Shown piece after piece: positions 3,419 through 57,305 of a stretch of 64,000 nt of DNA. The notes beneath the pieces were generated by a model that searched no databases, was not told the DNA's origin, and saw only the letters and a list, made by a program, of their open reading frames with translations. This stretch comes from Acorus gramineus (taxonomy: Eukaryota > Streptophyta > Magnoliopsida > Acorales > Acoraceae): NCBI GenBank assembly GCA_030737835.1, contig CM060855.1:15319438-15383437 (forward strand), given 5' to 3'. A program made the translations under genes and the position numbers. The first letter of the stretch is position 1. The number at the start of each line of letters is the position of its first letter.

Positions 3419-3419
3419 T

Positions 3420-3850: not shown

Positions 3851-3869
3851 TATATATATATATATATAT

Positions 3870-14918: not shown

Positions 14919-14934
14919 TATGATTTATTAGCAT

Positions 14935-15867: not shown

Positions 15868-18021
15868 ATGGGAGGATCATGTGGTGCTTCGGTGACACTA
15901 CTAATTGGGTGTCTGATTATATGTTGTTGTTGGTGCTGTGTTGATGTCAATGGGTGTGTGGAGGAGGAGAGGAGGGCACTCTTAGACATCAAACACTCTC
16001 TCCATTCAGTAGGTTATAACTCTATTGTACTTGAAGATTGGGTTGTTGGAGGTGGAGATTGTTGCAATTGGACTCGAGTAGAGTGTGATGCATTATCTTA
16101 CCCATATAGAGCCGTTTCAAAAATCGATCTTTCAGGTGTGAGATCGGGATTTTCTCAAAAATGGTATCCGAATGCCAGTCTGTTTGGCCAATTCACGAAA
16201 CTAAATGAGCTTTATTTGTGGGGTAATGACATTGCGGGATGGGTCAACCCACAAGGTACACCCCCCCCCCTCTCGATTGTTATAATTTATATTTTTAAAT
16301 GATGAACACAACACAAAATAATAATAATGACTCAAATTAATATATGCTAAGATGTGTCCGTGCACAATCTTAATTCTTGAATGGAAGATGCATGATGGAA
16401 TGTGAAAGAATTTGGATTAGAAAAAATTAAATGATAGAATTTTTTTCTTTTGGTTAATTTTTATGTTGTTCATATGTGTGATGAAGTTACTTTTTCTTAC
16501 ATTTAATTTTTATGTATGTGATGGATAAATAAAGTTATCACAATCTAAATAAGACAAAATAGGTAAAGAGAATGGATGATATTTTTTTCTTTTTCTTTCT
16601 CATGTTTAACAAACAATTATTTTTTTGCATGTTCAAAGTATTTTTTTTTTTACATTTTTCCACACTATACTATGTGCACAAACATACCCTTAACAGTGTT
16701 TTGGCTGCTTTGTTTTACGGGCATCTAAAAAAATATAGTGTGGATTGATCTATTTTGTAATCCAATAAGCAGCCTCATTTGCTATGCATGATAGCGTAAT
16801 ATATACTGTGTTATTGTAGTTTATAGTGATCTATCATAGTGTATGGAGTAAAAAAAAATTTATTTTTCTAAAAGAATATATTATTGTATCTCATTATATA
16901 TTTCATTTCATATAACAGTATATACTTCAATAGAAGAGTGTACACTTAAAAAAAAAAAAAAACCTAGTTGTGATTGCAAATGAGCTGCACTTTTTCTTGT
17001 TACAATTGCACTCTGATGATATATTATTCATCCTTCAGTCATACAAGTTAAAATGATCGTTAATGTATTGGGATATATGATTAGATCATTTAAAACTGTT
17101 CAAAAGCTCATCTTTTTTTTTCTTCTTTATTTCCTATGTCATATTTATTTTTTAAAAATATAAATTGTGATGTAGATATTTGGCATTTACAAAAAGTTCA
17201 ACAGCTGGACCTGAGCGGCAATCACTTAAATGATGAAAGCATTGCTCGATTAATTGTACCATGGATTCACAATTTGACTTCATTATTCGAACTTTATATC
17301 AATGGTAACAATTTGAAAGAGATACGTTGGATTTCCAACATCACTTCTCTGAGTTCGCTCGACTTATCAAATACTCAAATAAAAGATTTCTCAGGTACGT
17401 ATTTCCTTAACACTTTTTAAAATTTCTTTTTATTTATGTCATGAAAATAAATTTGTTTCTTTAAAATGATGATATATTACAATAGTTTTACAATAACAAA
17501 AAAAACTGTGATATGCTGATGCAGAGATGAAAAGAGGTACTTTCGATGGATGGAAATTAGAGAGAGATTACAAATTTAAAAATTTCTTTTGTTTCAAAAA
17601 ATAGATATTTTTTAAACTAAAATATATATATATTTAAAAAACTGAATAATTTTTACAATCCTAGTGATGTCTATTAATAGAAATCTAAATATATTGAAAT
17701 GTGATAATATCTTATCAAAATTTCAGTCATTTTAACTATAAATATAGTAATACTCTAACAACTAAATATATTTCTAGCAACGTGACTCTCTTTCTAAATC
17801 TAACAAATCCTAACAACCTTATTTTGAAATTCATAAATTTACGTCCAAAACTAATTATTTAATCTAATTAGTTAAATAAAATAATAATTATTTAACATAA
17901 TTATGGAAATCCATAGATTTATGCCCAAACTAATATAATATTGACATGGGCCGGGTTGTGAAGTTCATTTCATTTTTATTTTTTTATTTATTTTACTTCT
18001 AAGTATATACGTTGACACTTT

Positions 18022-18260: not shown

Positions 18261-18510
18261 AATAAGATTTTCCATCAAGTGTGCCATTGCATATTTTGTA
18301 CGTATATACTTTTTACATGAGATTATGAAGTTCGTTTCATTTATAATTTAGTCTCATGTTCATTGATGCTTTAGTCCATGCCTAAAAATTCCTAATCAAA
18401 ACATGATTACCATTAGTTGTTGGTAAAGTTGGATTAGGATGAACAATGGGCGTAATTTGTTTTGACAAAGATCAACAAGTCTTTTCTTCTAGCATGATCA
18501 TATGTTTATG

Positions 18511-19240
18511 AGCCAGAGATAAACATTGTTTGGATGTGATCGCTGATATAATATCATATTCACTTAATTATATAACTAAAGTTCATATATCAATAGATTC
18601 ATTAGTTTTCTTCACTGATTTAAATGAGTCAAATTTAGTATATGATGTTTTTTCTTTCATCTTTCTGTTAAAATAATAGTAGCAGTAACTAACCCCTCTT
18701 TTCAAGTTCTGTCATCAAAGATGATCAAAGAATATGTGCAAAAAAAGCTCTTGAACTGGGAAGTGTGGGCTTTTACCCACTGGGTATAGTGTCAACCTTA
18801 TCTGGGCAACCTTATTATATATGTATTGTGTATTGTGAGGAATACTGTCAACCTTATCCGGGCATCTGTACAAAATTTAGTGTATTGAGCTAGAGATAAA
18901 CATTGTTTAGATGTGATCGGTGATATAATACCATTTCCACTTAATTATATAACTAAAGTTAATAAATCAATAGATTCATTAGTTTTCTTCAATGATTTAA
19001 ATGAGTCAAATTTAGTATATAATATTTTCTTTCATCTTTCTATTCAAATAATAGTAGTAATAACCAACCTTTCTCTCTTCTAGTTCTATCATCTAACAAC
19101 GAAGATGATCAAAGAATATTGTGCAAAAAAAAGCCCTCTTGGGCTGGGAAATGTGGGCTTTTGCCCACTATTTATTTTGGGTATATATTATGTATTATGG
19201 AGAATAGTGTCAACCTTCTCCAGGCATTTGTACAAAAAAG
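18511..19240 (+). repeat. Tandem duplication of about 380 bp in RLP intron 2
   Basis: Two adjacent copies start at GAGCCAGAGATAAACATTG (18,511) and GAGCTAGAGATAAACATTG (about 18,889). Both run through GATTCATTAGTTTTCTTC, GATGATCAAAGAATAT and a GTGGGCTTTTRCCCACT inverted motif. Block B has the same pair (about 46,774-47,500), so it predates the block duplication. Confidence 0.75.
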
Positions 19241-22200
19241 AAAAAAGAAAAAAAAAGATGATTAGATGAAATTAATTAGGTTGATTGTCATGTACCTTTA
19301 TCAAAAACTTTGTTTATCAAAACATATATATGATTAGTTTTATTTTTTTATTGATCCCATGATGAATTTGATAATTTACTAATTAAGCATGATTAATTTT
19401 AAAAAAAAAAGGCCCCTTTTACCCGTTTAAATTAATAGATAAAGAAAGATAATGAAATCATTACTATTTTATGTGACTAGTAGATAAAGAAAGATAGTGA
19501 AATCATTACTATTTTCTGTGACTAGATTTTTTTTATATCATACATGAGATGCAACGGTTTAAAGCATAAGCCCGATAAAATATGGCTTCATTCAGTTGGA
19601 AAATTAACTTAATAATATGATGAAAAATATTTTTTTCTAGATATACGCGATTCGTTTTGCAGCCCTGTACACTATGATAGCATATTGTATAATGCACTAT
19701 TAGTGTATGAGATTTTATCATAGTGCACAATCAAAGTTTTTTTTTTTTTCCAAAGAGAAAAAAAATACACTATTATATCTTAGTATAAACTTCATTTTGT
19801 ATAACAATATGTACTTTATTTTGTGTAACAGTTTGTATTTCAATGAAGGAGTATAATTTTTTTTAAAACGAAAAACTGCATGGACTGCAAAATGAGGATG
19901 AATATATTGTTTTCCTTTTTTCTATAATGGTTTGTTATTTATTATTCTAAGCCATCCCAATTGCATATCTGCAGGTCTCTGGAGACTCCCTCATATTCAA
20001 GAATTAGACCTTGGTTCCAATGAGCTCACTGAAATTTCATGGCTTTCCAACCTAACATCCTTGACTTCTCTTTCTTTATTTAACAATACACTCAATGATT
20101 CCTCTATTATAAAAGGTAATATCACAGTTTACTTTTTGTCCTTTTTAGTGGTGGGCACTTGTTTAAGTATTCTAAAATTTTCAATCATGATATTGAGCGA
20201 TATGATCTATGTAATTTTTATGTTTAACAATGAGGAAGCCAAAAGATTTATATTTGATTTGGTTTTTATCGAATTTCTCATCTTACCTATTAAATTACAG
20301 TAGGGAGTTATCTACACTATATTTTTTTTGTTTAAATTTTGTTTTTTTAAGGAAGTGCATTTTGTTGAGCCTTGATGACCCCCTATTAGTATATAATTTT
20401 TTCTTGGAAAAAGATACACACCTATTGCAACCCCAATTGCAGTCATTTGTATTGCAGAGAATAGTGTCAACCTTGTCCAGGCATTTGTACAAAAAAGAAA
20501 AAAGAAAAAAGATGATTATATGAAATTAATCAGGTTGATTGTCATGTACCTTTATCAAAAACTTTGTTCATCAAAACATACATATGATTAGTTTTAATTT
20601 TTTTTATTGATCCCGTGATGAATTTGGTAATTTACAAATTAAGCATGATTAGTTTGAAAAAAGGCCCCTTTTGTTTGTTTAAATTAATAGATAAAAAAAA
20701 AATGAAATCATTACCATTTTTGTGACCAGATTTCGTTTTATATCATACATGAGATGCAACAGTTTAAATCATAGGCCCGATAAAATATGGCTTTATTCAG
20801 TTGGAAAATTAACTTAATAATATGATGAAAATATTTTTTTCTAGATATATGCGGTCCTTTTTCCAACCCTGTAGACTATGATTGCATATTGTATACTGCA
20901 TTATCAGTGAATGAGATTTTATCATAGTGCACAATCAAAGTTTTTTTTTCATTTTTCAAAGAGAAAATAAATACACTATTGTATCTTAAGATAAGGAGTA
21001 TAATATTTTAAAAAATGAAAAACTGCGTGGACTGCAAATGAGGATGAACATATCATTTTCCTTTTTTTCTATATTGCTTTGTTATTTATTGTTCTAAGCT
21101 ATCCCAATTGCATATCTGCAGGTCTCTGGAGACTCCCTTATATTCAAGAATTATACCTTGATTCCAATGAGTTCACTAAAATTTCATGGCTTTCCAACCT
21201 AACATCCCTTACTTCTCTTTTTTTACATGACAATACACTCAATGATTCCTCTATTATAAAAGGTAATATCACAGTTTACTTTCTGCATTTTTTAGTGGTG
21301 GACACTTGTTTAGGTATTATAAAATTTTCAATCATGATATTGAGCGATATGATTTATGTAGTTTTTATGTTTAATAATGAGAAAGTCAAAAGATTTATAT
21401 TTGATTTGACTTTTATCCAATTTCTCATCTTACCTATTAAATTACAGCAGGGATTATCTACACAATATCTTTGTGTTTTAATTTTTAAAAAAAAAGTGCA
21501 TTTTGTTGAGCCTTGATGACTATTCCAAAGTTGACAAAAATGTGTTCTGTTGTTATTCATCACACTTGATTTCCTCTGTTATGCAGATCTTTGCCAGCTA
21601 CAAGATTTACAAGTCTTAGATCTCTCGCAAAATTCAATGAAGGGCAACATTGATACGTGTTTGAAAAGTCTGTATTCCCTAGAAAGGCTAGATCTATCTT
21701 CCAATCAATTAGACGGTGCATTTCCATTTTCCACATTTGCCAACCTCTCCAACATATCCTTATTGATCTATCAAATAACGACCGACTAGAGGTTGAAACA
21801 GAGTCTCCATCATGGGTTCCATCATTCCAATTGGAGTTCCTTCTTCTAAGCAACTGTGTACTCAACAAACGTAGTGGCCGAAGGGTCCCTAGTTTCCTGT
21901 CCACACAAAATGCATTGACCTTCCTAGATTTGTCCCATAGTTCGATCATAGTGAGCAATCTGTCAGAGTTGATTAATAATGTTACTCAAAGATTATATTT
22001 GGGGGGAAATACATTTCATGGACCGTTCCTTCAGGATAACAAAAATAGCAGTTCATCACTCGAATTCCTAGACTTGTCTGATAGTAATATATGTGGAACA
22101 CTTCCCCCAAATTTTACAATCTTCTTTACTAAACTAGTTATGTTTAATATGTCTGGCAATGCCTTGCATGGGACTATCCCTCTCTCTCTTGGTGTCCATC

Positions 22201-23457
22201 CATCGCTGGTTTACTTAGATTTGTCCAGAAATAATTTTACAGGAGAGATACCACAATCAATAATGAAAAACCCAAATATGATTTATTTGAACTTGGCGGA
22301 CAATAACCTGAACGGGAAGATATCTTTTAGGAATTGCAGTATGCCCCGGCTACAATATTTCAATCTATATGACAATCACCTCACAGGGTCCATACCCATA
22401 AGCTTGTTTAATAGCTCAAATATAATGTTCTTGGATATTAGAAAGAATTTCTTCTCAGGTAATATTCATAGTTCATTATTTACACTTCACAATGTGGTAA
22501 TACTTCTCTTGTCTGAAAATAATTTTGAAGGTCCAGTTTCAACTCAAGTGTATCATATGAAAAATCTTCACATCTTAGATCTTTCAAATAACCATCTTTC
22601 TGGAACAATTCCTAGTTGCCTGAAAAATATCACTTCTTGGATCATAGATTCTCCAATTGACTACCCTTTGTACAGTGTTAATATATTATATTTTCTGATA
22701 TTTCTACCAACACAATTGTGTCTAGCTTAATTACAAAAGGTAGGTTTGATTCTTATATGGGCACTCCCCTCTCTCTAATGACTGCACTAGACTTATCCAA
22801 GAACCAGTTTTCTGGTCCCATCCCTTTTCAAATGGGATATTTGAGTGCACTTCACTCGTTAAACTTGTCAAACAACCACCTCACAGGACCAATTCCGAAT
22901 TCCTTTCAAAACTTGGAAAATATAGAGAGTTTGGACCTCTCTAATAATGATCTATCAGGTGAAATTCCTTCCCAGCTTGTCAAACTCCATTCGCTCTCTG
23001 TATTTCGAGTGGCCTACAATAACTTGTCAGGCATTATCCCATACAAAGATCAATTCTGCACATTCAATAAAAGTAGTTTTGAAGGTAATCCAGGCTTGTC
23101 TGGAGTATTGATAGAGAAGAATTGCTGGTCAATGCATGGGACTTCACAAACATACCATGACAGTAATATTGGTGATCATGAAGAGACGTCGAAGGCCATT
23201 GATAATGATGTGATCTTCTATTCGTTCATCGCGGCATCATTTGCGATTGGATTTTGGGGTTTCATTGCAGTGGTCGCCTTCAACAAGAATGGGCGGATCA
23301 AGTTTTTCATGGCGGCTGATGATTTTTGCTATGCATGCATGGATGTGATCTTGGGCCTCATAAAACGCATTGAAAAATGTATATGTAAATGAAAGAAGGC
23401 CAAAATAATATATGTTGCATCCAATCCAAGAAAACTTGTGCAACTTTGTAACTAGTG

Positions 23458-23463
23458 AATAAA
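23458..23463 (+). terminator. Poly(A) signal of the block A RLP
   Basis: AATAAA lies 66 bp after the stop codon at 23,390-23,392. The third RLP copy has the same sequence at 56,367-56,372. Confidence 0.5.
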
Positions 23464-23789
23464 TGCAATGGCATATATGAGAATTATATTTTTTAATGAA
23501 TGGGTATTTTGGAACAACTTGTCTTTTCCTTGAACAAGAATTAACATATGGAGTGGCACTGTGCGTTCTGAGAATCAGGGGTGGTAGAGAGATAGTGTTT
23601 CTACATCTTTTCAAAATGTGAAATAAAAATACCCTATAACATGATTTTTCATTTAAAACACAGACGTTGTATTTTTGTTTGGATATGCAGTTGCATTAAA
23701 CGGTGTTTCCCACCGCAGAATCCGCCTTGCTGTGTATCCAAACAAGGCCTAAGAAGAATCAAATCTATTGAGGAACTCATTGATTAAAG

Positions 23790-42500: not shown

Positions 42501-43366
42501 GATGTTCACCAATTCCCGAGCATTTGATTGCTCGACTGCGTTTTCATTATCACCTTCTTGTGAGTCATTCACGTGAATGAGATCCGCTTCAGGTCCATAT
42601 GTACTTACAAAAAACATAGCATAAGTTATAAAATATAAGAGTAAACGCACAGAATTAACATATCAATTTACGTGAAACTATGATAAAATTGTATGACGAT
42701 AGAAATTACATATATTATGTATGATATCTATCTTTGTCAAAAGCCTTTAATGGCTTCCATGAATAACTGGCTGACCTTCTCTCTATCCCACAAGAGCTTC
42801 CTCAACATACCCAATCACAGTTAGTCTCTCGTGGGGATCTCGGATTCGGATCGAACAACGAACCTTCTCTAAACATCCCAACACTCAGATTAAATGGTTC
42901 TTTTGGTATCCTTGAAGCTTTCAATAGACCCCATTCTTTAGAAGAGCAAAAATACCTAAACAGTAATAAAAGCCTTCCTTTGATCCTTGTTTTTTGATAG
43001 GTTTGTTGTTCTCTTTTCAATGTATCAATTCATCTCAAGCTTCTCTCCTTTTTTTTCTTTGGATATAACCCATTATTTCATAAGCATCGACGGATCGGAA
43101 CGAACTCATCCGAGGAAGAAGAAGAAATAATTTGGGGAAGAAGAAGAGAAAGTGATGGTTTGGAGAAGAAAAAGAAAAAGAAAAAGAAAAAGAAATGGAA
43201 TATAATTTTTATTTGTCTTATATAAAGGGGTATTACTAGTATTAAGAAAAAACAGAGATAAAAGAAAAAAGGGACAGCTCTGCAGGGGTAAAAAAAAAAT
43301 TATTTAAAGTCCAGGGACACAGAAAAAATAAGGGGGTTGGTCCAGGGGTATTTGAACAATTCCCCC
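39536..43366. mobile_element. Non-autonomous Mutator-like element, block B copy
   Basis: Same insertion as 11,213-14,918. It has GGGGGAATTGTCCAAATACC ends and the right target repeat TATGATTTA at 43,367-43,375; the left repeat has drifted to AAGATTTA. It is slightly longer (3,831 bp), mainly from an extra C-rich and a 70-bp AT-rich segment (near 39,750 and 40,500). The coding-looking islands match those of the A copy. Confidence 0.85.
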
Positions 43367-43382
43367 TATGATTTATTAGCAT

Positions 43383-43595
43383 CATATACTCACATTAATG
43401 AAGTATATGTTTCATAAAAAAAAATTTACATTTTTGTTATAAATGTATCCATACAATTCATTGTAGTATATCTTTCATTTTTTAATAAAAATATGCATTT
43501 CACTAGATGAGGTATACTCTTTAAAAAAAATCAAAGAGTGTGTAGACTGAAATTGAGACTAAAAAATAAAATGTGCAAAACAATATCCTCTAAAA
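43383..43595. mobile_element. Small MITE (dispersed family)
   Basis: Direct counterpart of 14,935-15,145. Confidence 0.6.
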
Positions 43596-44046
43596 AACTA
43601 TTATAGTGCACTATTTGACCATGTTAACACTCGTCATTCTTGCAATCCCCACCTATCTAGTATATATTAAATATGTACTATATTAAAAAGTGTCAAAAAA
43701 ATATATTTAAGTCTTTTTTGACAACCCATTTTGGGTTGTTTTTAACTTCTTTAAAAATAAAAAAATATGAGACATATTACCAAACAAATCCACTTAATTG
43801 AAAAACTAACTTCATGATTATAACAAAAGTGCATCGAAAACAAAATTTATTCCAACAAAAGTAACTTCTGTTATCAGCAATAAACATGATTCTTTAATTA
43901 ATTAAAAAGCAGACCTCATGATTACATTTTAAAAAATTGTCTATAAAGTTAAAAGTTGTTTTTCTAAATGTGTTTTCAAATGGGGGTAATTTATTTGAGT
44001 ATATGTTTTAGAGAAATAGTTAGAAACTCAAAAAAAAAAAAAAAAA

Positions 44047-44300
44047 GATGATAGTCCCAAATGAATTATTGAATTAAAGACTTTGTTTAACTCCACAGCC
44101 CCAACTTTCACGTTAATGACTCCACATGAGATTTTGATTGGACTGATTTTTCTTCTTCTCTCCCCACCCCAACCCCCACGCCCACGTTAAGGACTCCAAG
44201 TCAAAACCAAACTTTGTGGAACATTAAAAACTATATATGCATATAAAAAAGAAGTCTGTGAGCACTTCAAAAAAACAAAACAAAACACAAAGTTGTGAGT
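44047..44300 (+). promoter_or_regulatory. Proximal promoter and leader of the intact RLP
   Basis: GATAGTCCCAAATGAATTAT and the CTTCTTCTCTCCCCACCCC tract are followed by a TATA-like CTATATATGC at 44,231-44,240, about 60 bp before the ATG at 44,301. The short leader is CAAAACAAAACACAAAG-like. Confidence 0.7.
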
Positions 44301-47300
44301 ATGGGAGGATCATGTGGTGCTTCGGTGACACTACTAATTGGGTGTCTGATTATATGTTGTTGTTGGTGCTGTGTTGATGTCAATGGGTGTGTGGAGGAGG
44401 AGAGGAGGGCACTCTTAGACATCAAACACTCTCTCCATTCAGTAGGCTATGACCCTATTATGCTTGAAGATTGGGTTGTTGGAGGTGGAGATTGTTGCAA
44501 TTGGACTGGAGTAGAGTGTGATGCATTATCTTACCCATATAGAGCCGTTTCAAAAATCGATCTTTCATTTGTGAGATTGGGATTTTCTCAAAAATGGTAT
44601 CCGAATGCCAGTCTGTTTGGTCAATTCAAAGAACTAAAGAAGCTTTATTTGGGACATAATGGCATTGCGGGATGGGTCAACCCACAAGGTATAAAAAAAC
44701 AATCATTTTTTCCCCCCTCCCCCGATTGTTATAATTTATATTTTTAAATGATGAACACAACACAAAATAATGACTCAAATTAATGTATGCTAAGATGTGT
44801 ATGTGCACAATCTTAATTCTTGAATAGAAGATGCATGATGCAATGTGAAAGAATTTGGATTAGAAAAAAATTAGATGATAGAATTTTTTTTCTTTTGGTT
44901 AATTTTTATGTTGTTCATGTATGTGATGGAGTTACTTTTCCTTACATTTAATTTTTATGTATGTGATGGATAAATAAAGTTATCACAATCTAAATAAGAC
45001 AAAATAGGTAAAGAGAATGGATGATTTTTTTTTTCTTTTTCATGTTTAACAAACAATTATTTTTTTGCATGTTCAAAGTATTTTTTTTTACCTTTTTCCT
45101 CACTATACTATGTGCACAAACATACCCTTAACAATGTTTCGGCTGCTTTGTTTTACGGGTATCTAAAAAAATATAGTGTGGATTGATACACTCAATCTAT
45201 TTTGTAATCCAATATGCAGCCTCATTTGCTATGCATGATAGCGTAGTATATACTGTGCTATTGTAGTTTATAGTGTTCTATCATAGTGTACGGAGTAAAA
45301 AAAAATTATTTTTCTAAGAGAATATATTATTGTATCTCAGTATATATTTCATTCATATAACAATATGTATTTCAATAGAAGCTCATCTTTTTTTTTTCTT
45401 TATTTCCTATGTCATACTTATTTTTTAAAAATATAAATTGTGATGTAGATATTTGGCATTTACAAAAAGTTCAACAGCTGGACCTGCGCGCCAATCACTT
45501 AAATGATGAAAGCATTGCTCGATTAATTGTACCATGGATTCACAATTTGACTTCATTATTCGAACTTTATCTCGGTTGGAACAATTTGAAAGAGATACGT
45601 TGGATTTCCAACATCACTTCTCTGAGTTCGCTCGACTTATCAAATACTCAAATAAAAGATTTCTCAGGTACGTATTTCCTTAACACTTTTTAAAATTTCT
45701 TTTTATTTATGTCATGAAAATAAATTTGTTTCTTTAAAATGATGATATATTACAATAACAAAAAAAACTGTAATATGCTGATGCAGAGATGAAAAGAGGT
45801 ACTTTCGATGGATGGAAATTAGAGAGAGATTACAAATTTAAAAATTTCTTTTGTTTCAAAAAATAGATATTTTTTAAACTAAAATATATATATTTTAAAA
45901 AAAACTGAATAATTTTTACAATTCTAGTGATGTCTATTTATAGAAATCTAAATATATTGAAATGTGATAATATCTTATCAAAATTTCAGTCATTTTAACT
46001 ATAAATATAGTAATACTCTAACAACTAATTATATTTCTAGCAACGTGACTCTCTTTCTAAATCTAACAAATCCTAACAACCTTATTTTAAAATTCATAGG
46101 TTTATGCCCAAAACTAATTATTTAATCTAATTATTTAAATAAAATAATAATTATTTAACATAATTATCGAAATCCATAGATTTATGCCCAAACTAATATG
46201 ATATTGACATGGGCCGGGTTGTGAAGTTCTTTTATTTTATTTTATTTATTTATTTTACTTCCAAGTATATATGTTGACATTTTAGGGTTTGTTTGGAAAC
46301 GAGTTTGAGCAGCTTTTGATTTTGAATGAAGCTGTTTTTTTCAAACCAGTTTTCAAACAGAAAAATTAGGGCCAAAAGCTGCAAACAAATTTTTGTGAAA
46401 AAAATACTTAAAACTTGAGTTTTGCAAAAGCTGTGGAGAGGCAGCTTTCTACAAAATTAGTTTAAATTTATCTTTTTGCCTAGAATCAATTTTGTAATCA
46501 TGCAACCAAACGTAGCCTTATTAATAAGATTTTCCATCAAGTGTGCCATTGCATATTTTGTACGTTTATACTTTTTACATGGATCATGAAGTTCGTTTCA
46601 TTTATAATTTAGTCTCATGTTCATTGATGCTTTAGTCCATGCCTAAAAAATTCCTAATCAAAGCATGATTACCATTAGTTGTTGGTAAAGTTGGATTAGG
46701 ATGAACAATGGGCGTAATTTGTTTTGACAAAGATCAACAAGTCTTTTCTTCTAGCATGATCATATGTTTATGAGCCAGAGATAAACAATGTCTGGATGTG
46801 AACGATGATATAATACAATATCCACTTAATCATATAACAAAAGTTCATATATCAATAGATTCATTAGTTTTCTTCAATGATTTAAATGAGTCAAATTTAG
46901 TATATGATTTTTTTTCTTTCATCTTTCTGTTAAAATAATAGTAGTAGTAACTAGTAACCAACCCTCTCTTTTCAAGTTCTATCATCAAAGATGATCAAAG
47001 AATATGTGCAAAAAAAGCCCTTTTGGGCTGGGAAGTGTGTGCTTTTACCCACTGGTTATAGTGTCAACCTTATCCGGGCAACCTTATTATGTATGTATTG
47101 TGTATTGTGAGGAATACTGTCAACCTTATCCGGGCATCTGTACAAAATTTAGTGTATTGAGCTAGAGATAAACATTGTTTAGATGTGATCGGTGATATAA
47201 TACCATTTCCACTTAATTATATAACTAAAGTTAATAAATCAGTAGATTCATTAGTTTTCTTCAATGATTTAAATGAGTCAAATTTAGTCTATAATATTTT

Positions 47301-50300
47301 CTTTCATCCTTCTATTCAAATAATAGTAGTAATAACCAACCTTTCTCTCTTCTAGTTCTATCATCTAACAACGAAGATGATCAAAGAATATTGTGCAAAA
47401 AAAGCCCTCTTGGGCTGGGAAATGTGGGCTTTTGCCCACTATTTATTTTGGGTATATATTATGTATTATGGAGAATAGTATCAACCTTCTCCAGGCATTT
47501 GTACAAAAAAGAAAAAAGAAAAAAAAAGATGATTAGATGAAATTAATTAGGTTGATTGTCATGTACCTTTATCAAAAACTTTGTTTATCAAAACATACAT
47601 ATGATTAGTTTTATTTTTTTATTGATCCCATGATGAATTTGATAATTTACTAATTAAGCATGATTAGTTTGAAAAAAAAGGCCCCTTTTACCCGTTTAAA
47701 TTAATAGATAAAGAAAGATAATGAAATCATTACTATTTTATGTGACTAGTAGATAAAGAAAGATAATGAAATCATTACTATTTTATGTGACTAGATTCTT
47801 TTTATATCATACATGAGATGCAACGGTTTAAAGCACAAGCCCGATAAAATATGGCTTCATTCAGTTGGAAAATTAACTTAATAATATGATGAAAAATATT
47901 TTTTTTTAGATATACGCGATTCGTTTTGCAGCCCTGTACACTATGATAGCATATTGTATAATGCACTATTAGTGTATGAGATTTTATCATAGTGCACAAT
48001 CAAAGTTTTTTTTTCATTTTTCCAAAGAGAAAACAAATACACTATTATATCTTAGTATATACTTCATTTTGTATAACAATATGTACTTTATTTTGTATAA
48101 CAATATGTACTTCAATGAAAGAGTATAATTTTTTAAAAATGAAAAACTGTGTGAATTGTAAATGAGGACGAACATATCATTTTCCTTTTCTATAATGGTT
48201 TGTTATTTATTATTCTAAGCCATCCCAATTGCATATCTGCAGGTCTCTGGAGACTCCCTCATATTCAAGAATTAAACCTTGGTTCCAATGAGCTCACTGA
48301 AATTTCATGGCTTTCCAACCTAACATCCTTGACTTCTCTTTTTTTAGATGACAATACACTCAATGATTCCTCTATTATAAAAGGTAATATCACAGTTTAC
48401 TTTTTGTCCTTTTTAGTGGTGGGCACTTGTTTAAGTATTCTAAAATTTTCAATCATGATATTGAGCGATATGATCTATGTAATTTTTATGTTTAACAATG
48501 AGGAAGCCAAAAGATTTATATTTGATTTGGCTTTATCCAATTTCTCATCTTACCTATTAAATTACAGTAGGGGTTATCTACACAATATCTTTGTGTTTTA
48601 AATTTTTTTTTTTTAAAAGTGCATTTTGTTGAGCCTTGATGACCCCCTATTAGTATATAATTTTTTCTTGGAAAAAGATACACACAGCCCCTATTGCAAC
48701 CCCAATTGCAGTCATTTGTATTGCGGAGAATAGTGTCAACCTTGTCCAGGCATTTGTACAAAAAAGAAAAAAGAAAAAAGATGATTAGATGAAATTAATC
48801 AGGTTGATTGTCATGTACCTTTATCAAAAACTTTGTTCATCAAAACATACATATGATTAGTTTTATTTTTTTTATTGATCCCGTGATGAATTTGGTAATT
48901 TACAAATTAAGCATGATTAGTTTAAAAAAAAGGCCCATTTTGCTAGTTTAAATTAATAGATAAAAAAATAAAATGAAATCATTATCATTTTTTGTGACCA
49001 GATTTCTTTTTATATCATACATGAAATGCAACAGTTTAAAGCATAGGCACGATAAAATATGGCTTTATTCAGTTGGAAAATTAATTTATTAATATGATGA
49101 AAAATATTTTTTTCTAGATATATGCGGTCCTTTTTCCAACCCTGTAGACTATGATTGCATATTGTATACTGCATTATCAGTGAATGAGATTTTATCATAG
49201 TGCACAATTAAAGTTTTTTTTTCATTTTTTCAAAGAGAAAACAAATACACTCTTGCATCTTAGGATATACTTCATTTTGTATAACAGTATGTACTTCAAT
49301 GAAGGAGTATAATTTTTAAAAAAATGAAAAACTGTGTGGATTGCAAATGAGGATGAACATATCATTTTTCCTTTTCTATAATGGTTTGTTATTTATTGTT
49401 CTAAGCTATCCCAATTGCATATCAGCAGGTCTCTGGAGACTCTCTCATATTCAAGAATTAGACCTTGGTTCCAATGAGCTCACTGAAATTTCATGGCTTT
49501 CCAACCTAACATCCTTGATTGATCTCGATTTATCTAACAATACACTCGATGATTCCTCTATTATAAAAGGTAATATCACAGTTTACTTTCTGCCCTTTTT
49601 AGTGGTGGGCAATTGTTTAGATATTTTAAAATTTTCAATCATGATATTGAGCGATATGATCTATGTAGTTTTTATGTTTAATAATGAGGAAGCCAAAAGA
49701 TTTATATTTGATTTGGCTTTTATTGAATTTCTCATCTTACCTATTAAATTACAGTAGAGGGTTATGTACACAATATTTTTTTGTTTAAAATGTTTTATTT
49801 TTTAAAAAGTGCATTTTGTTGAGCCTTGATGACCCCCTATTAATATATAATTTTTTTTGGAAAAAGATACACATAACCCTCATTGCAGCACCAATTGCAG
49901 TCATTTGTATCGTGAAGAATAGTGTCAATCTTGTCCATGCATTTGTACAAAAATAAAAAGAAAAAAAGATGATTAGATGAAATTAATCAGGTTGATTGTC
50001 ATGTACCTTTATCAAAAACTTTGTTTATCAAAACATACGTATGATTAGTTTTATTTATTTTTTATTGATCCCGTGATGAATTTGATAATTTACTAATTAA
50101 GCAATGATTAGTTTGAAAAAAGGCCCCTTTTGCCTGTTTAAATTAATAGATAAAAAAAGAAAATGAAATCATTACCATTTTTGTGACCAGATTTCTTTTT
50201 ATATCATACATGAGATGCAACAGTTTAAAGCATAAGCCGAATAAAATATGGCTTTATTAAGTTGAAAAATTAACTTAATAATATGATGAAAAATATTTTT

Positions 50301-53300
50301 TTCTAGATATGTGCGGTCCGTTTTGCAGTCCTGTACACCATGATAGCATATTGTATAATGCACTATCGGTGTATGAAATTTTATCATAGTGTACAATCAA
50401 AGTGTTTTTTTTCATTTTTCCAAAGAGAAAATAAATACACTATTGTATCTTAAGATAAGGAGTATAATATTTTAAAAAATGAAAAACTGCATGGACTGCA
50501 AAATGAGGATGAATATATCATTTTCCTTTTTTTTATATTGGTTTGTTATTTATTGTTCTAAGCTATCTCAATTGCATATCTGCAGGTCTCTGGAGACTCC
50601 CTCATATTCAAAAATTATACCTTGATTCCAATGAGCTCACTGAAATTTCATGGCTTTCCAACCTAACATCCTTGACTACTCTTTTTTTAGATGACAATAC
50701 ACTCAATGATTCCTCTATTATAAAAGGTAATATCACAGTTTACTTTTTATCCTTTTTAGTGGTGGGCACTTGTTTAGGTATTCTAAAATTTTCAATCATG
50801 ATATTGAGCGATATGATCTATGTAGTTTTTATGTTTAATAATGAGGAAGCCAAAAGATTTATATTTGATTTGGCTTTTATTGAATTTCTCATCTTACCTA
50901 TTAAATTAAAGTAGAGGGTTATCTACACAATATTTTTTTGTTTAATTTTTTTTTTTTAAAATGCATTTTGTTGAGCTTGATGACCCCCCTATTGATATAT
51001 AATTTTTTTTTGGAAAAAGATACACACAGCTCCCATTGCAACACCAATTGCAGTCATTTGTATCGTGAAGAATAGTGTCAATCTTGTCCATGCATTTGTA
51101 CAAAAAAAAAAAAAAGATGATTAGATGAAATTAATCAGGTTGATTGTCATGTACCTTTATCAAAAACTGTGTTTATTGAAACATACATATGATTAGTTTT
51201 ATTTTTTTTATTGATCTCGTGATGAATTTGAAAATTTACAAATTAAGCATGATTAGTTTGAAAAAAGGCCCCTTTTGCCTGTTTAAATTAATAGATAAAA
51301 AAAGAAAATGAAATCATTACCATTTTCTGTGACTAGATTTCTTTTTATATCATACATGAGATGCAACAGTTTAAAGCATAAACCCGTTAAAATATGGCTT
51401 TATTAAGTTGAAAAATTAACTTAACAATATGATGAAAAATATTTTTTTTAGATATATGCGGTCCGTTTTACAGCTCTGTACACTATGATAGCATATTGTA
51501 TAATGCACTATCAATGTATGAGATTTTATCATAGTGTACAATCAAAGTGTTTTTTTTTTTTTTTTCATTTTTCCAAAGAGAAAACAAATACACTATTATA
51601 TCTTAAGATAAGGAGTATAATATTTTAAAAAATGAAAAACTGCATGGACTGCAAAATGAGGATGAATATATCATTTTCCTTTTTTTTATATTGGTTTGTT
51701 ATTTATTGTTCTAAGCTATCTCAATTGCATATCTGCAGGTCTCTGGAGACTCCCTCATATTCAAAAATTATACCTTGGTTCCAATGAGCTCACTGAAATT
51801 TCATGGCTTTCCAACCTAACATCCTTGACTACTCTTTTTTTAGATGACAATACACTCAATGATTCCTCTATTATAAAAGGTAATATCACAGTTTACTTTC
51901 TGCCCTTTTTAGTGGTGGGCACTTGTTTAGGTATTCTAAAATTTTCAATCATGATATTGAGCGATATGATTTATGTAGTTTTTATGTTTAATAATGAGGA
52001 AGTCAAAAGATTTATATTTGATTTGACTTTTATCCAATTTCTCATCTTACCTATTAAATTACAGTAGGGGTTATCTACACAATATCTTTGTGTTTTAAAT
52101 TTTTTTTTTTAAAAAAAAGTGCATTTTGTTGAGCCTTGATGACTATTCCAAAGTTGACAAAAATGTGTTCTGTTGTTATTCATCACACTTGATTTCCTCT
52201 GTTATGCAGATCTTTGCCAGCTACAAGATTTACAAGAGTTAGATCTCTCGAAAAATTCAATGAAGGGCAACATTGATACGTGTTTGAAAAGTCTGTATTC
52301 CCTAGAATTTCTAGATCTATCTTCCAATCAATTAGACGGTGCATTTCCATTTTCCACATTTGCCAACCTCTCCAACATATCCTTTATTGATCTATCAAAT
52401 AACGACCGACTAGAGGTTGAAACAGAGTCTCCATCATGGGTTCCATCATTCCAATTGGAGTCCCTTCTTCTAAGCAACTGTGTACTCAACAAACGTAGTG
52501 GCCGAAGGGTCCCTAGTTTCCTGTCCACACAAAATGCATTGACCGACATAGATTTGTCCCATAGTTCGATCATTGTGAGCAATCTGTCAGAGTTGATTAA
52601 TAATGTTACTCAAAGATTATATTTGGGGGGAAATACATTTCATGGACCGTTCCTTCAGGATAACAAAAATAGCAGTTCATCACTCGAATTCCTAGACTTG
52701 TCTGATAGTAATATATGTGGAACACTTCCCCCAAATTTTACAATCTTCTTTACTAAACTAGTTATGTTTAATATGTCTGGCAATGCCTTGCATGGGACTA
52801 TCCCTCTCTCTCTTGGTGTCCATCCATCGCTGGTTTACTTAGATTTGTCCAGAAATAATTTTACAGGAGAGATACCACAATCGATCATGAAAAATCAAAA
52901 TTTGATTTATTTGGACTTGGCGAACAATAACCTGATCGGGAAGATATCTTTTAGGAATTGCAGTATGCCCCGGCTACAATATTTCAATCTATATGATAAT
53001 CACCTCACAGGGTCCATACCTATAAGCTTGTTTAATAGCTCAAATATAATGTTCTTGGATATTAGAAAGAATTTCTTCTCAGGTAATATTCATAGTTCAT
53101 TATTTACACTTCACAATGCGGTAATACTTCTCTTGTCTGAAAATAATTTTGAAGGTCCAGTTCCAACTCAAGTGTGTCATATGCAAAATCTTCACATCTT
53201 AGATCTTTCAAATAACTATCTTTCTGGAACAATTCCTAATTGTCTGAAAAATATCAGTTCTTGGATCATAGATTCTCCAATTGACTACCCTATGTTCATG

Positions 53301-54008
53301 GTTGCCCATTTTAGACTTTTTCAAATTTCTACCAACACAGTTGTGACTAACTTAACGACAAAAGGTAGGTGCGATTCTTACAAGGGCACTCCCCTCTCTC
53401 TAATGACTGCACTAGACTTATCCAAGAACCAGTTTTCTGGTCCCATCCCTTTTCAAATGGGATATTTGAGGGCACTTCACTCGTTAAACTTGTCAAACAA
53501 CCACCTCACAAGACCAATTCCAAATTCCTTTCAAAACTTGGAAAATATAGAGAGTTTGGACCTCTCAAATAATCATCTATCAGGTGAAATTCCCTCCCAG
53601 CTTGTCAAACTCCACACGCTCTCCGTGTTTCGAGTGGCCTACAATAACTTGTCAGGCATTATCCCATACAATGATCAATTCTGTACATTCAATAAAAGCA
53701 GCTTTGAAGGTAATCCAGGCTTGTCTGGAGAATTATTGATAGAGAAGAAGTGCTGGTCAATGCATGGGACTTCACAAATATACCATGACAGCAGTCACAA
53801 CAGTAATGGTGATCAGGAAGATACGTCGAAGGCCATTGATAATGATGTGATCTTCTATTCGTTCATCGCAGCATCATTTGCGATCGGATTTTGGGGTGTC
53901 ATTGCGGTGCTTGCCTTCAACAAGAATGGGCGGCTCAAGTTTTTCATGGCGGCTGATTATTTTCTCTATGCATGCATGAAAAACAAGGCCAAAACAATAT
54001 ATGTGTGA
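44301..54008 (+). CDS. LRR receptor-like protein (RLP), intact, 989 aa
   Basis: Seven exons: 44,301-44,688, 45,449-45,667, 48,243-48,383, 49,429-49,569, 50,586-50,726, 51,739-51,879 and 52,210-54,008. All introns are GT-AG and phase 1, and the exons sum to 990 codons with no internal stop. Residues 1-29 form a Cys-rich signal peptide. The cap follows (CVEEERRALLDIKHSL, GGGDCCNWTGVECD). LRRs fill most of the protein; exons 3-6 (residues about 203-390) are four copies of a 47-residue double LRR (GLWRLPHIQELNLGSNELTE type). An island near WIIDSPIDY...TTKGRCDSYKG separates the last LRRs. A membrane helix lies at about 936-960 (VIFYSFIAASFAIGFWG), with a basic tail of about 29 residues and no kinase. 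Closest known type: multi-exon RLPs and Cuscuta receptor-like proteins, which sense extracellular ligands at the plasma membrane through SOBIR1/BAK1-type kinases; ligand and partner here are inferred at best. Confidence 0.9.
46282..46522. mobile_element. MITE in RLP intron 2 (block B)
   Basis: Counterpart of 18,022-18,260, with the same TTTAGGGTTTGTTTGGAAAC and ACCAAACGTAGCCTTA ends. Confidence 0.55.
46774..47500 (+). repeat. Tandem duplication of about 380 bp in RLP intron 2 (block B)
   Basis: Same pair as at 18,511-19,240, starting at GAGCCAGAGATAAACAATG and GAGCTAGAGATAAACATTG. Confidence 0.75.
47500..51879 (+). repeat. Four intragenic exon-plus-intron units in the RLP
   Basis: A unit of about 1.15-1.19 kb repeats in tandem. 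Exon starts lie at 48,243, 49,429, 50,586 and 51,739, giving spacings of 1,186, 1,157 and 1,153 bp. Each unit carries the same intron landmarks (AGATGATTAGATGAAATTAA, GATACACACAGC-like, a MITE-like ACACTATGATAGCATATTG stretch, ATTGCATATCTGCAG acceptor) and the 141-nt exon. The last two exons differ by a single residue, so that duplication is the youngest. Block A has two units (19,975 and 21,122). Confidence 0.95.
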
Positions 54009-54479
54009 TCTTGGGCCTCATAAAATGCATTGAAAAAGAAGGCCAAAATAATATATGTTGCATCCAATTCAAGAAAACTTGTGCAACTTTTTAAATCATT
54101 CGCATGTATTTGAATTGTTTTTCTCCAATGAATGGGTATTTTGGAATAACTTGTCTTTCAAAATATTAAGAGAATTGATGATTTTTTTAGACATTGATGG
54201 AAATAGTCCATAGAAAATGCATGGATTTTCTTTCTTCAAGTCTTTGTTAATTTGAAGCGTTGGTGTAGTTGAGAACTATGATGGAAGTTGAATAAAACCC
54301 AAAAATCTGTTTATTTATGAGGAATAAGTGAATATAGCTATAACAAAATATGTGAGAATAAAATTTTTTTTTTTTTTTGTTGGGTAATTGATTTATATTG
54401 AAAAAAAGGAAGAAAATGTACAAAGCAGAAAGGATTACAGAGAATATGAAAAGAGAAGTAGGCTTTTCAATGTCTATAC
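54009..54479. other. RLP 3' region and spacer before the third RLP copy
   Basis: Right after the stop, GATCTTGGGCCTCATAAAAT and AAGGCCAAAATAATATATG repeat sequence also seen inside the coding end of the other copies. The B gene's short KNKAKTIYV ending therefore arose from a local duplication or deletion relative to the KRIEKCICK ending. A T-run lies at about 54,364-54,379. No gene or clear poly(A) signal. Confidence 0.5.
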
Positions 54480-56301
54480 CATCATGGGTTCCATCATGAG
54501 TCTCCATCATGGGTTCCATCATTCCAATTGGAACACCTTTTTCAATGAAGGGTAACATTGATACGTGTTTGAAAAGTCTGTATTCCCTAGAATTTCTAGA
54601 TCTATCTTTCAATCAATTAGACAGTGCATTTCCATTTTCCACATTTGCCAACCTCTCCAACATATCCTTAATTGATCTATCAAATAACGACCGACTAGAG
54701 GTTGAAACAGAGTCTCCATCATGGGTTCCATCATTCCAATTGGAACACCTTTTTCTGAGCAACTGTGTACTCAACAAACACAGTGGCCGAAGGGTCCTTA
54801 GTTTCCTGTCCACACAAAATGCATTGACCGACATAGATTTGTCCCATAGTTCGATCATTGTGAGCAATCTGTCAGAGTTGATTAATAATGTTACTCAAAG
54901 ATTAAATTTGAGGGGAAATACATTTCATGGACCGTTCCTTCCGGATAACAAAATAGCAGTTCATCACTCGAATTCCTAGACTTGTCTGATAGTAATATAT
55001 GTGGAACACTTCCCCCAAATTTTACAATCTTCTTTACTAAACTAGTTATGTTTAATATGTCTGGCAATGCCTTGCATGGGACTATCCCTCTCTCTCTTGG
55101 TGTCCATCCATCACTGGATTGGTTAGATTTGTCCAGAAATAATTTTACAGGAGAGATACCACAATCAATCATGAAAAACCCAAATATGATTTATTTGAAC
55201 TTGGCGGACAATAACCTGAACGGGAAGATATCTTTTAGGAATTGTAGTATGCCCCGGCTACAATATTTCAATCTATATGATAATCACCTCACAGGGTTCA
55301 TACCCATAAGCTTGTTTAATAGCTCAAATATAATGTTCTTGGATATTAGAAAGAATTTCTTCTCAGGTAATATTCATAGTTCATTATTTACACATCACAA
55401 TGTGGTAATACTTCTCTTGTCTGAAAATAATTTTAAAGGTCCAGTTTCAACTCAAGTGTGTCATATGAAAAATCTTCACATCTTAGATCTTTCAAATAAC
55501 CATCTTTCTGGAACAATTCCTAGTTGCCTTAAAAATATCACCTCTTGAATCATAGATTCTCTAATTGACTATCCTTCGTTCAGTGTTAATCATAATATAT
55601 TTTATGATATTTCTACCAACACAATTGTGTCTAGCTTAATTACAAAAGGTAGGTTTGATTCTTATAAGGGCACTCCCCTCTCTCTAATGACTGCACTAGA
55701 CTTATTTAAGAACCAGTTTTCTGGTCCCATCCCTTTTCAAATGGGATATTTGAGTGCACTTCACTCGTTAAACTTGTCAAACAACCACCTCAGAGGACCA
55801 ATTCCAAATTCCTTTCAAAACTTGGAAAATATAGAGAGTTTGGACTTCTCTAATAATGATCGATCAGGTGAAATTCCTTCCCTGCTTGTCAAACTCCACA
55901 CGCTCTCCGTATTTCGAGTGGCCTACAATAACTTGTCAGGCATTATCCCATACAAAGATCAATTCTGCACATTCAATAAAAGCAGCTTTGAAGGTAATCC
56001 AGGCTTATTTGGAGTATTGATAGAGAAGAATTGCTGGTCAATGCATGGGACTTCACAAACATACCATGACAGTGATATTGGTGGTCATGAAGATACGTGG
56101 AAGGCCATTGATAATGATGTGATCTTCTATTCGTTCATCGCGGCATCATTTGCGATCTGATTTTGGGGTGTCATTGCAGTGCTCGCCTTCAACAAGAATG
56201 GGCGGATCAAGTTTTTCATGGCAGCTGATGATTTTTGCTATGCATGCATGGATGTGATCTTGGGCCTCATAAAACGCATTGAAAAATGTATATGTAAATG
56301 A
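54480..56301 (+). pseudogene. Third RLP copy, 5'-truncated and broken
   Basis: Matches only the last exon of the RLP, from about codon SMKGNIDTCLKSLYSLEFLD to the stop at 56,299-56,301; no exons 1-6 precede it. It shows a frame change near 54,950 (in GGATAACAAAATAGC), a Trp-to-stop change at 55,546 in the island region, and a stop in the membrane helix at 56,158 (FAI followed by TGA). Just upstream, 54,477-54,541 repeats a piece of its own LRR region out of order. Its 3' end, including the KRIEKCICK tail and poly(A) region, is closest to the block A RLP. Confidence 0.9.
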
Positions 56302-56644
56302 AAGAAGGCCAAAATAATATATGTTGCATCCAATCCAAGAAAACTTGTGCAACTTTGTAACTAGTGAATAAATGCAATGGCATATATGAGAATTATATTT
56401 TTCAATGAATGGGTATTTTGGAACAACTTGTCTTTTCCTTGAACAAGAATTAACATATGGAGTGGCACTGCGCGTTCTGAGAATCAGGGGTGGTAGAGAG
56501 ACAGTGTTTCTATATCTTTTCAAAATGTGAAATAAAAATACCTTATAACATGATTTTTCATTTAAAACACAAACGTTGTATTTTTGTTTGGATATGTAGT
56601 TGCATTAAACGGTGTTTCCCACCGTAGAATCCACCTTGTGTATC

Positions 56645-57305
56645 CAAATGGTGTGTGGGAATACACGTGCCTTTTTTTCATGATCCGGCCCGACCCGGCT
56701 GGTGCAGACGGATGCCTGCGTAAAAAATTGACGGCGTGAGAGTCCTTTTCGTACTTTCGGAGGGAACCATCGCGTTTTCAAAACCCCAATCGAAATTTTT
56801 TCATCTCTCAAAAAGTTCCCCTTTTGATAATCTCTCTATTTCTCTCTCCCTCTCTCTCTCTCTCTCTCTCCGAAGATCTGCCCTAAAAGCCCTCGATCTG
56901 GGGAAAAATCAATTCGAAAACGTGAATCTAGGGTTTCAGTTCCCCCGAGTCGCGGAGTCGAAGGCATCACTCGCTTCATATCATTGGATTGGAAATTTTC
57001 GGGTTCTCTGATCTGTTCTAGCTTCTGTATATTTTACATTTTCGATTTTTGTTAGGATTGCATATGTTTGACGGTGGAGTTTGATGATGCATGCATAGAA
57101 AAATCACTGCGTTCGGTTTTATATGACCCATTTCTGTAATCAAAGTTTGTGTTAGGGTTTTGATGTTGCTCCATTAAAAATAACGAACCTTTTTTTTATT
57201 TTTCTATTGGATTTTATATTAATGTGGATATTTGCATTATTTATGGAGAAATATATAGGTTGCCGGGGAACTTTATGCTTATAGAAACCAAGGGAGCAGC
57301 TATTA
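56645..57305 (+). promoter_or_regulatory. DONSON promoter, leader and 5' UTR intron
   Basis: A GATCCGGCCCGACCCGGC motif near 56,681 is followed by a CT-rich leader tract (CTCTCTCTCTCTCTC about 56,848-56,869), common at plant housekeeping genes, and the GTGAATCTAGGGTTTCAG sequence. A 5' UTR intron is likely, ending at ATATATAG before GTTGCCGGGG (about 57,260). Its expected donor reads GGCATC here (56,963-56,968) but GGTATC in the block A copy. Confidence 0.5.

Follow-up and report, generated by a model that had tools for sequence, protein, structure and literature searches.

A leucine-rich-repeat receptor-like protein cluster in Acorus gramineus with a frame-neutral tandem exon cassette whose unit number was probably altered by unequal exchange

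The window, the whole stretch of 64,000 nucleotides of Acorus gramineus DNA analysed here, contains a receptor gene with an open frame (gene B), a paralogue upstream of it (block A) and the remnant of a third copy downstream (block C). All features lie on the forward strand:

44,301-54,008, +: gene B, whole, seven inferred exons
44301..44688, +: gene B exon 1, 388 nt, ends in phase 1; start codon ATG seen in the sequence, donor GT
45449..45667, +: gene B exon 2, 219 nt, phase 1-1, leucine-rich repeats (LRRs); AG/GT borders and frame
47462..52143 (about), +: tandem unit array of gene B including introns, by self-alignment
48243..48383, +: gene B u1 exon, class alpha, 141 nt, phase 1-1, two LRRs
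49429..49569, +: gene B u2 exon, class beta, 141 nt, phase 1-1
50586..50726, +: gene B u3 exon, gamma exon with gamma-type 5' intron and beta-type 3' intron
51739..51879, +: gene B u4 exon, class gamma, 141 nt, phase 1-1
52210..54008, +: gene B last exon, C-terminal LRRs to stop codon; AG acceptor, 599-codon open frame
15868..16255, +: block A exon 1
17176..17394, +: block A exon 2
19975..20115, +: block A u1 exon, class alpha
21122..21262, +: block A u2 exon, gamma in the exon and on its 3' side, with the preceding intron largely beta-like
21587..23341, +: block A last exon, disrupted frame, with codon 68 of the exon as the first stop
54541..56250, +: block C, remnant of a last exon, interrupted by in-frame stops

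The unit searches gave no match to a unit exon beside the block C remnant.

The gene B model gives an uninterrupted translation of 989 amino acids. Exon 1 specifies a signal peptide, read by eye, an LRRNT_2 domain and the first LRR sequence; the last exon ends in a hydrophobic segment and a short tail, likewise judged by eye from the translation. In Pfam, LRRNT_2 (PF08263) covers residues 32-74 (E 1.6e-10) and LRR_8 and LRR_4 exceed the cut-off, with no kinase domain among nine families at E up to 0.01. With an N-terminal LRRNT_2 and LRRs present and the kinase absent, gene B is, by predicted domain content, a plant LRR receptor-like protein (RLP) of the immune type. The final 30 nt of its coding sequence are unlike those of the other copies. 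The last exon had no match in the plasmid collection.

Borders, frame and translation agree with the preliminary description that exons 3-6 of gene B are four 141-nt, phase 1-1 exons of two LRRs; each is preceded by AG and followed by GT and has phase 1 at both borders. The unit length of about 1.15 kb given there also holds, with start-to-start spacings of 1186, 1157 and 1153 nt. In self-alignment the array matches itself over 3.5 kb at 89%, far above chance, and since the repeat includes the introns, the array begins 5' of the first unit exon and finishes 3' of the last. Exons u3 and u4 are indeed one residue apart (1 of 141 nt), but their introns, earlier called near-identical, are not: those ending at u3 and u4 share 95.1% identity over 1002 aligned bases with eight indel events, compared with 91.1% and 91.5% for the two remaining inter-unit intron pairs. 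Along the Bu3-Bu4 alignment identity reaches 99-100% in columns 800-999, around the exon start, against 84-96% in most intron windows.

A genome search found 19 full units over six gene copies (A, B, P, Q, R and X), three on this chromosome (contig C9) and three on contig C79. The copies carry 2, 2, 3, 4, 4, and 4 units plus a fused fragment: two each in P and in block A, where the two earlier reported unit exons were recovered at 19975-20115 and 21122-21262, three in Q and four in B. All but two of the full units (17 of 19) are 141 nt long and phase 1-1, Xu4 and Ru4 measuring 140 nt; every one keeps its own AG, and 18 of the 19 keep the GT donor. The unit copies are 88-99% alike. At the corresponding place a distant relative on C5, 48% identical, has just one such exon, likewise 141 nt and phase 1-1, and in a C11 relative the best unit match by tblastn seems embedded in a longer coding stretch. 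The possibility that the unit is a mobile element was rejected: in a search that scored 40 of 1934 initial candidates, full-length copies of the whole unit intron came up only in this cluster. About 250 bp near the 3' end of the intron (query about 734-1001) have diverged matches (73-83%) at at least 15 other places, which points to an old dispersed element within the intron and not to transposition of the unit.

Open frames are kept by B, with four units and 989 aa, and by P, with two units and 899 aa; the other four copies are broken. X has a fused exon in which a 5' part of the last exon runs into a 3' part of a unit exon; an in-frame reading of this fusion was rejected, as correct placement of the acceptor leads into a stop codon, and X is therefore broken there, in addition to a 1-nt deletion in u4. 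A has a frameshifted last exon, and Q a 1-nt deletion in exon 1 and a mutated u3 donor. The sole lesion found in R is a 1-nt deletion in u4, an exon of 140 nt when begun at its AG acceptor. The earlier proposal that unequal exchange changes unit number without loss of frame is thus supported for B and P, the copies with open frames.

The units sort into position classes, alpha, beta and gamma, common to different genes. Ultrafast bootstrap separates alpha from the rest (100), beta (100), gamma (99) and the Au2/Pu2 pair (100) in trees that omit the partial unit of X, and FastTree is concordant; the pair itself falls with beta in one tree (0.849) and with gamma in the other (60). Gene Q has the order alpha-beta-gamma, and R a doubled alpha unit. 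Switches between classes were sought in eight units (Au2, Pu2, Bu3, Xu3, Qu3, Ru4, Xu2 and Bu2), with per-unit shuffle counts left uncorrected. Bu3 is gamma up to a switch point lying between exon nt 120 and intron nt 147, and beta beyond it (0/5000 shuffles); with its gamma exon and beta-type 3' intron it is read as a gain junction. Au2, mostly beta at first, turns gamma 144-166 bp ahead of the exon (4/5000), and Pu2 at the same place, more weakly (165/5000); the second unit of A and P is read as a loss junction, the weaker one in P. The gain and loss junctions have opposite polarity. The Xu3 signal (58/5000) comes from two beta sites at the far left end, Qu3 gave 1450/5000, and Ru4, Xu2 and Bu2 had zero or one discordant site, the shuffles covering the other five units. 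The intron between u3 and u4 of B is 94.1-95.5% identical to the four beta-gamma introns (X, B, Q and R) and 91.0-92.5% to the six introns located behind a first or alpha unit (those of X, B, Q, A and P, and the one after R u2). On their left sides Au2 (16 beta versus 9 gamma sites) and Pu2 (14 versus 11) are patchy, so gene conversion is likely to have shaped these units in addition to crossing-over; the 3' tail of B u1, part of which resembles gamma, again points to conversion.

The earlier view that the last duplication in B is very recent is not supported. The full units u3 and u4 are 95.2% identical, with introns 5% diverged; this figure and the presence of the same u3-u4 junction intron in X (99.4% identical) led to the rejection of a recent event. 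The two are no more alike than u3 of B and the gamma units of other genes (94.9-95.8%), whereas u4 of B shares 98.9% with u4 of X. The near-identical u3 and u4 exons give no date for the duplication. As one alternative, an exchange between already diverged gamma units would appear old from the outset, the 5% then being the divergence of the units and not the date of the event.

Amino-acid changes in the units concentrate at LRR positions predicted to face the solvent. When exposed positions are assigned from the LxxLxLxx motif, in 17 of the 19 full units (the 140-nt Xu4 and Ru4 excluded from this and the pN/pS counts), 9 of 10 exposed positions vary versus 7 of 36 others (Fisher 8.6e-5). Differences per site at codon positions 1+2 amount to 0.284 in exposed and 0.029 in other codons, a contrast that pools related pairs, and to 0.080 in introns. 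Third codon positions (0.030) lie below the introns, which are therefore an unmatched baseline, and pN/pS stays under 1 both within beta (0.64) and in the Au2-Pu2 pair (0.57). Exposed changes above and other 1+2 positions below the intron rate speak for past selection on the putative receptor units. As the preliminary description proposed, the array may face the ligand and supply new recognition specificities.

C79 is probably an alternative haplotype of the C9 region, with partners there at 96-99%; P sits outside its collinear part. X and Q, both broken, differ in unit number at matching places of the two probable haplotypes. It is the downstream flank that pairs them; on the upstream side, the flank of Q is about equally close to those of B and X, and exon 1 of Q is closest to that of B.

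The cluster is very probably one of LRR-RLP genes in which a frame-neutral exon cassette lies in tandem and unequal exchange has altered the number of units. One 141-nt, phase 1-1 exon of two LRRs, with an intron of about 1 kb, would have become a tandem cassette, the cluster likely starting from a three-unit gene, alpha-beta-gamma. Units would then have mispaired between sister or homologous chromosomes, or between neighbouring genes, giving the longer B (alpha-beta-gamma/beta-gamma) and the shorter A and P (alpha-beta/gamma). With symmetric borders, and with exchanges in introns or at the exon edge, frame and splice signals would be kept in B and P. Units, classes, junctions and open frames are read directly from the DNA; all units are presumably spliced into the transcript, and the extra LRRs may alter what the receptor binds.

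Other explanations account for parts of these data. False expansion or stitching of haplotypes by the assembler is conceivable with copies so alike, and the assembly does retain C79 alongside its C9 partners; yet the units are told apart by substitutions and indels, the arrays, found on two contigs, have little length (that of B about 4.7 kb), and X and B have the same junction intron, all of which makes an artefact highly improbable. Gene conversion, mainly keeping units alike after their number changed once or twice long ago and became stable, is a possible if doubtful account: the patchy Au2 and Pu2, the gamma-like tail of B u1, the peak of Bu3/Bu4 identity near the exon start and the third codon positions less diverged than introns would all fit, but conversion cannot by itself change unit number, and six copies differ in their counts, B has a whole extra inter-unit intron of beta-gamma type between u3 and u4, and R a doubled alpha unit. 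That the whole cluster is decaying, with unit number drifting neutrally among pseudogenes and recognition unaffected, is unlikely; the broken frames of four among the six copies and the divergent final 30 nt of the B coding sequence would fit, but the long open frames of B and P, and the excess of exposed changes over the intron rate with restraint at other 1+2 positions, argue against it.

The units might also be alternative cassettes, included or skipped so that one gene yields receptors of several lengths. Each is frame-neutral with its own AG, and nearly all have GT; omitting R u4, which holds the only lesion found there, leaves the remainder of R in frame; the u3 donor of Q is mutated, though its exon 1 is lesioned as well; and the passages on brown-algal LRR exons in PMC11378527, which report alternative splicing, offer a precedent. 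Against this, splice-site letters of intact units are alike, with no sign of mutually exclusive choice, and R and Q may be plain pseudogenes; the reading appears improbable. Equally a long shot is a ruler series, one RLP present with two, three and four cassettes across two haplotypes, its exposed residues outpacing introns and its cassettes perhaps skipped. If true, a single-unit lesion of the R type would be bypassed, one gene would give several solenoid lengths, and LRR number would be a recognition variable tunable through both germline and splicing.

Unequal exchange of cassettes would place the cluster within a known type of receptor evolution, here in unusually readable form. LRR-number variation is a recognised source of receptor diversity, and the usual evidence for the exchanges behind it comes from repeats within a single exon, as in tomato Hcr2, where the variable LRRs lie in one uninterrupted exon. 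In passages on the Hcr2/Cf-2 and Cf-5 RLPs, LRR number ranges from 25 to 38 via recombination and homologues have repeats in common (PMC10515242, PMC7468133). The homologues here likewise differ (2 to 4 full units), apparently by intragenic recombination with readable junctions. The Hcr2 repeats are, however, 24-aa LRRs, whereas here the unit is an exon of 47 aa and two LRRs with an intron of about 1 kb; each LRR pair has its own exon between 1.0-kb introns, and switches fall in introns or at the exon edge. The cluster thus works in an Hcr2-like manner without being filed as Hcr2.

Exons of equal length in tandem, with identical phase at both ends, are the likeness to two protist and algal systems. 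In Tetrahymena, tandem LRR exons of equal length and phase are attributed to unequal crossing-over within and between genes (PMC6564038), but at 90 bp, in phase 2 and in thousands of genes of a ciliate, as opposed to 141 nt, phase 1 and one plant cluster. For brown algae, parts of PMC11378527 describe LRR-ROCO genes with tandem symmetric LRR exons under diversifying selection and proposed immune specificities, and cite Zambounis et al. (2012) on LRR-ROCO exon shuffling; those exons are 72 bp, phase 2, one LRR each, in ROCO GTPases, as against phase 1 and two LRRs here. Haplotypes at banana RGA08 and the RPP5 complex differ by unequal and intragenic recombination of paralogues (PMC3017797, PMC4945094), but these are intracellular NB-LRR genes, and the portions cited describe gene number and chimaeric genes rather than an exon cassette. 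Within open-licence PMC literature, no paper on tandem exon duplication in plant leucine-rich repeat genes was found, and a search for receptor-like protein LRR exon duplication by unequal crossing returned Tetrahymena only.

Gain and loss products, their junctions marked, stand beside a probable three-unit precursor in the same cluster, which makes the mechanism directly readable and testable in a single plant. The two-unit and four-unit receptors, P and B, would form a pair at hand for asking whether solenoid length changes the response to a ligand.

Gene B, the intact LRR receptor-like protein gene of the window, is predicted to encode a protein of 989 aa whose Pfam matches comprise an LRRNT_2 domain and LRRs, with no kinase domain among them. 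All introns of the model are of phase 1 with GT-AG borders, and its exons are as follows.

44301-44688, plus strand: exon 1, 388 nt
45449-45667, plus strand: exon 2, 219 nt
48243-48383, plus strand: unit exon u1, 141 nt
49429-49569, plus strand: unit exon u2, 141 nt
50586-50726, plus strand: unit exon u3, 141 nt
51739-51879, plus strand: unit exon u4, 141 nt
52210-54008, plus strand: last exon

Each unit exon encodes 47 aa, i.e., two LRRs. The inter-unit introns measure 1045, 1016 and 1012 nt and the final intron 330 nt; in a self-alignment, homology among the units (exon plus intron) spans 47462-52143. Four such 141-nt phase 1-1 exons in B and two in its block A paralogue had been noted in the preliminary description, and are confirmed by the gene model and a genome search for units. 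A tandem repeat of ~387 bp (46771-47147 and 47158-47508) lies 5' of u1, overlapping the start of the unit homology, and may have been the start point of the first unit duplication. A ~250-bp stretch at ~49117-49384, near the 3' end of a unit intron, recurs in diverged form (73-83%) at no fewer than 15 other places in the genome (40 of 1934 candidates scored) and looks like an old dispersed element. Among the best 60 of 273 PDB sequence matches, those to residues 161-415 (exon 2 to the start of the last exon) are internalins and an LRR protein of bacterial type, entered as a Rab family protein, those to the last exon plant LRR receptor kinases; because of this difference, the LRR type may not be the same in both solenoid halves.

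In the 398.6-Mb assembly (137 contigs), the unit exon has at least 22 matches, a lower bound obtained by scoring the best candidates: 19 to full units, one to a partial unit and two, both short, to more distant genes on C9, the chromosome contig that holds the window at 15319438-15383437. The full units are distributed over six gene copies, three on C9 and three on a second contig, C79.

X, C9: four full units, with a further unit fragment joined to part of a last exon
A, C9: two units
B, C9: four units
P, C79, minus strand: two units
Q, C79: three units
R, C79: four units

An AG acceptor is present in all 19 units, a GT donor in 18 (Q u3 has AT), and the exact 141-nt length in 17, X u4 and R u4 each being one base short. 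The frames of B and P are open from end to end. In A the last exon is broken; Q lacks 1 nt of exon 1 and also has the mutated u3 donor; R has the 1-nt deletion in u4, and X several lesions. The window carries a tandem duplication of ~28 kb, whose blocks A (12124-23742) and B (40547-56648) share 94-96% identity over their two longest alignments, and a third last-exon remnant at 54541-56250. Minus-strand open frames at 1278-2307, flanked by inverted repeats (62-493 and 3410-3868, 93% identical), resemble those of a FAR1/Mutator-type transposon protein.

A distant relative on contig C5, with 48% identity over the last exon, carries a single unit exon, which reads as 141 nt and phase 1-1 and is preceded by an 81-nt intron. 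Four genes at C9 15.66-15.74 Mb, ~60% identical, retain no more than a degraded remnant of the unit exon; in two of these relatives, ~350-400 kb away, it contains a stop codon (reverse-complement coordinates of each locus).

L032, 3626-3748: stop-bearing unit-exon relic
L033, 4023-4121: stop-bearing unit-exon relic

The ancestral state was probably a single unit, and within the range of the search the array is confined to this one cluster of the genome.

A tree of the 19 full units clusters them by position rather than by gene, so three units seem older than the spread of these gene copies. Class alpha comprises the first units and R u2; beta, the second units of X, B and Q and the third of R; gamma, the last units of X, B, Q and R together with X u3 and B u3; A u2 and P u2 form a separate pair. 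Ultrafast bootstrap values are 100 for alpha versus the rest, 100 for beta, 99 for gamma and 100 for the A u2/P u2 pair (FastTree, 1.000, 1.000, 0.978 and 1.000). The pair groups with gamma in the ultrafast-bootstrap tree (60) and with beta in the FastTree one (0.849), as would a hybrid unit.

Junctions were sought in eight units by scoring switches at beta/gamma-distinguishing sites, in five of them against 5000 shuffles. B u3 is gamma in its 5' intron and exon (39/39 sites) and beta in its 3' intron (7/9 sites), a switch equalled by none of the shuffles; the B u3-u4 intron is 94.1-95.5% identical to the four beta-gamma introns versus 91.0-92.5% to the post-alpha introns of X, B, Q, A, P and R u2. 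The switch of A u2 runs in the opposite direction: mostly beta on the left (16 sites versus 9 gamma), it turns to gamma 144-166 bp before the exon and stays so from there on (0 versus 14; 4/5000 shuffles), and P u2 switches at the same place, more weakly (14 to 11, then 1 to 13; 165/5000). X u3 scores 58/5000 owing to a pair of beta sites at the extreme left, Q u3 scores 1450/5000, and R u4, X u2 and B u2 have at most one discordant site each. A gamma-to-beta exchange, of the B u3 type, would add one unit; a beta-to-gamma exchange, of the A u2/P u2 type, would take one away. In R the alpha unit is doubled, with an unusual 1134-nt intron between the copies. The extra part of X is nearly identical to B (u3-u4 intron 99.4%, u4 98.9%), and at C9:15290794-15291100 (L011) a 5' last-exon segment runs straight into a 3' unit-exon segment, the fused frame containing a stop codon; this extra part is read as the product of a faulty exchange. 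The 3' tail of B u1 includes a gamma-like stretch, read by eye, and short conversion tracts thus also occur among the units.

The LRR exon array of the B cluster is real and well documented in sequence, and in part it bears out the preliminary interpretation. The very recent last duplication earlier deduced from exons 5 and 6 of B, which differ by one residue, is not supported, as the whole units u3 and u4 differ by 4.8%: at 38/759 sites in the 5' introns, 16/253 in the 3' introns and 1/141 in the exons. B u3 matches the gamma units of other genes (94.9-95.8%) just as well as it matches B u4 (95.2%), and B and X diverge by 1.1-1.9% in units 1, 2 and 4 versus 5.1% in u3. Either the B duplication predates the B-X exchange or the units it joined were already diverged.

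Among 17 intact unit exons, the amino acid varies at 16/46 codon positions: at 9/10 predicted solvent-facing positions of the two LxxLxLxx motifs versus 7/36 elsewhere (Fisher 8.6e-5). Codon positions 1+2 show 0.284 differences per site at exposed codons versus 0.029 at the others. Third positions (0.030 per site) fall below introns (0.080), so the introns are no matched neutral baseline. Pairwise pN/pS, from non-independent pairs, is 1.51 over all 136 pairs, 1.33 within alpha, 0.64 within beta and 0.57 for A u2-P u2; gamma has zero silent changes. The large exposed-versus-other contrast points to diversifying selection on the unit exons.

C9 and the 1.0-Mb C79 are probably two haplotypes. All three cluster-edge probes (two from C9, one from C79) match the opposite contig at 96-99%, and the partners are collinear; the upstream C9 probe has further, partial copies on C9 itself (93-97%). 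One of three farther C79 probes has a low-copy C9 partner (14.22-14.23 Mb, inverted, 96-99%). The remaining two, repeat-rich or lacking a long C9 partner, are little informative. Allelism is likely for C79 as a contig and at most tentative gene by gene: P (97% identical to A over 16 kb) is inverted and outside the collinear stretch, the C79 copy closest to the B last exon (98% over residues 83-599) had no unit exon match nearby among the best candidates scored in the genome search, and X and Q have exchanged parts. X and Q share a downstream flank at 99.0-99.5% and are paired on this basis; the Q upstream flank (96.6% to X versus 96.2% to B, non-decisive for pairing) and Q exon 1 (99.7% identical to B exon 1) suggest the exchange. 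The strongest example of differing length at matching places is X versus Q, two broken genes with exchanged parts.

Mispaired units would exchange within introns or at the exon edge, where symmetric phase 1-1 borders would preserve frame and splice signals, and the products would differ by 47 aa, two LRRs, per predicted exon unit. LRR number is reported to vary by intragenic recombination in Hcr2 receptors (PMC7468133, PMC10515242), and unequal crossing-over to produce arrays of equal LRR exons in Tetrahymena (PMC6564038) and, with alternative splicing, in brown-algal ROCO genes (PMC11378527); the Tetrahymena paper gives the same model as proposed here for the B cluster. Among the open-licence papers listed, there was no earlier case of a plant receptor with such an array, which is weak evidence of absence. 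The B cluster combines the plant receptor class with an exon-array design.
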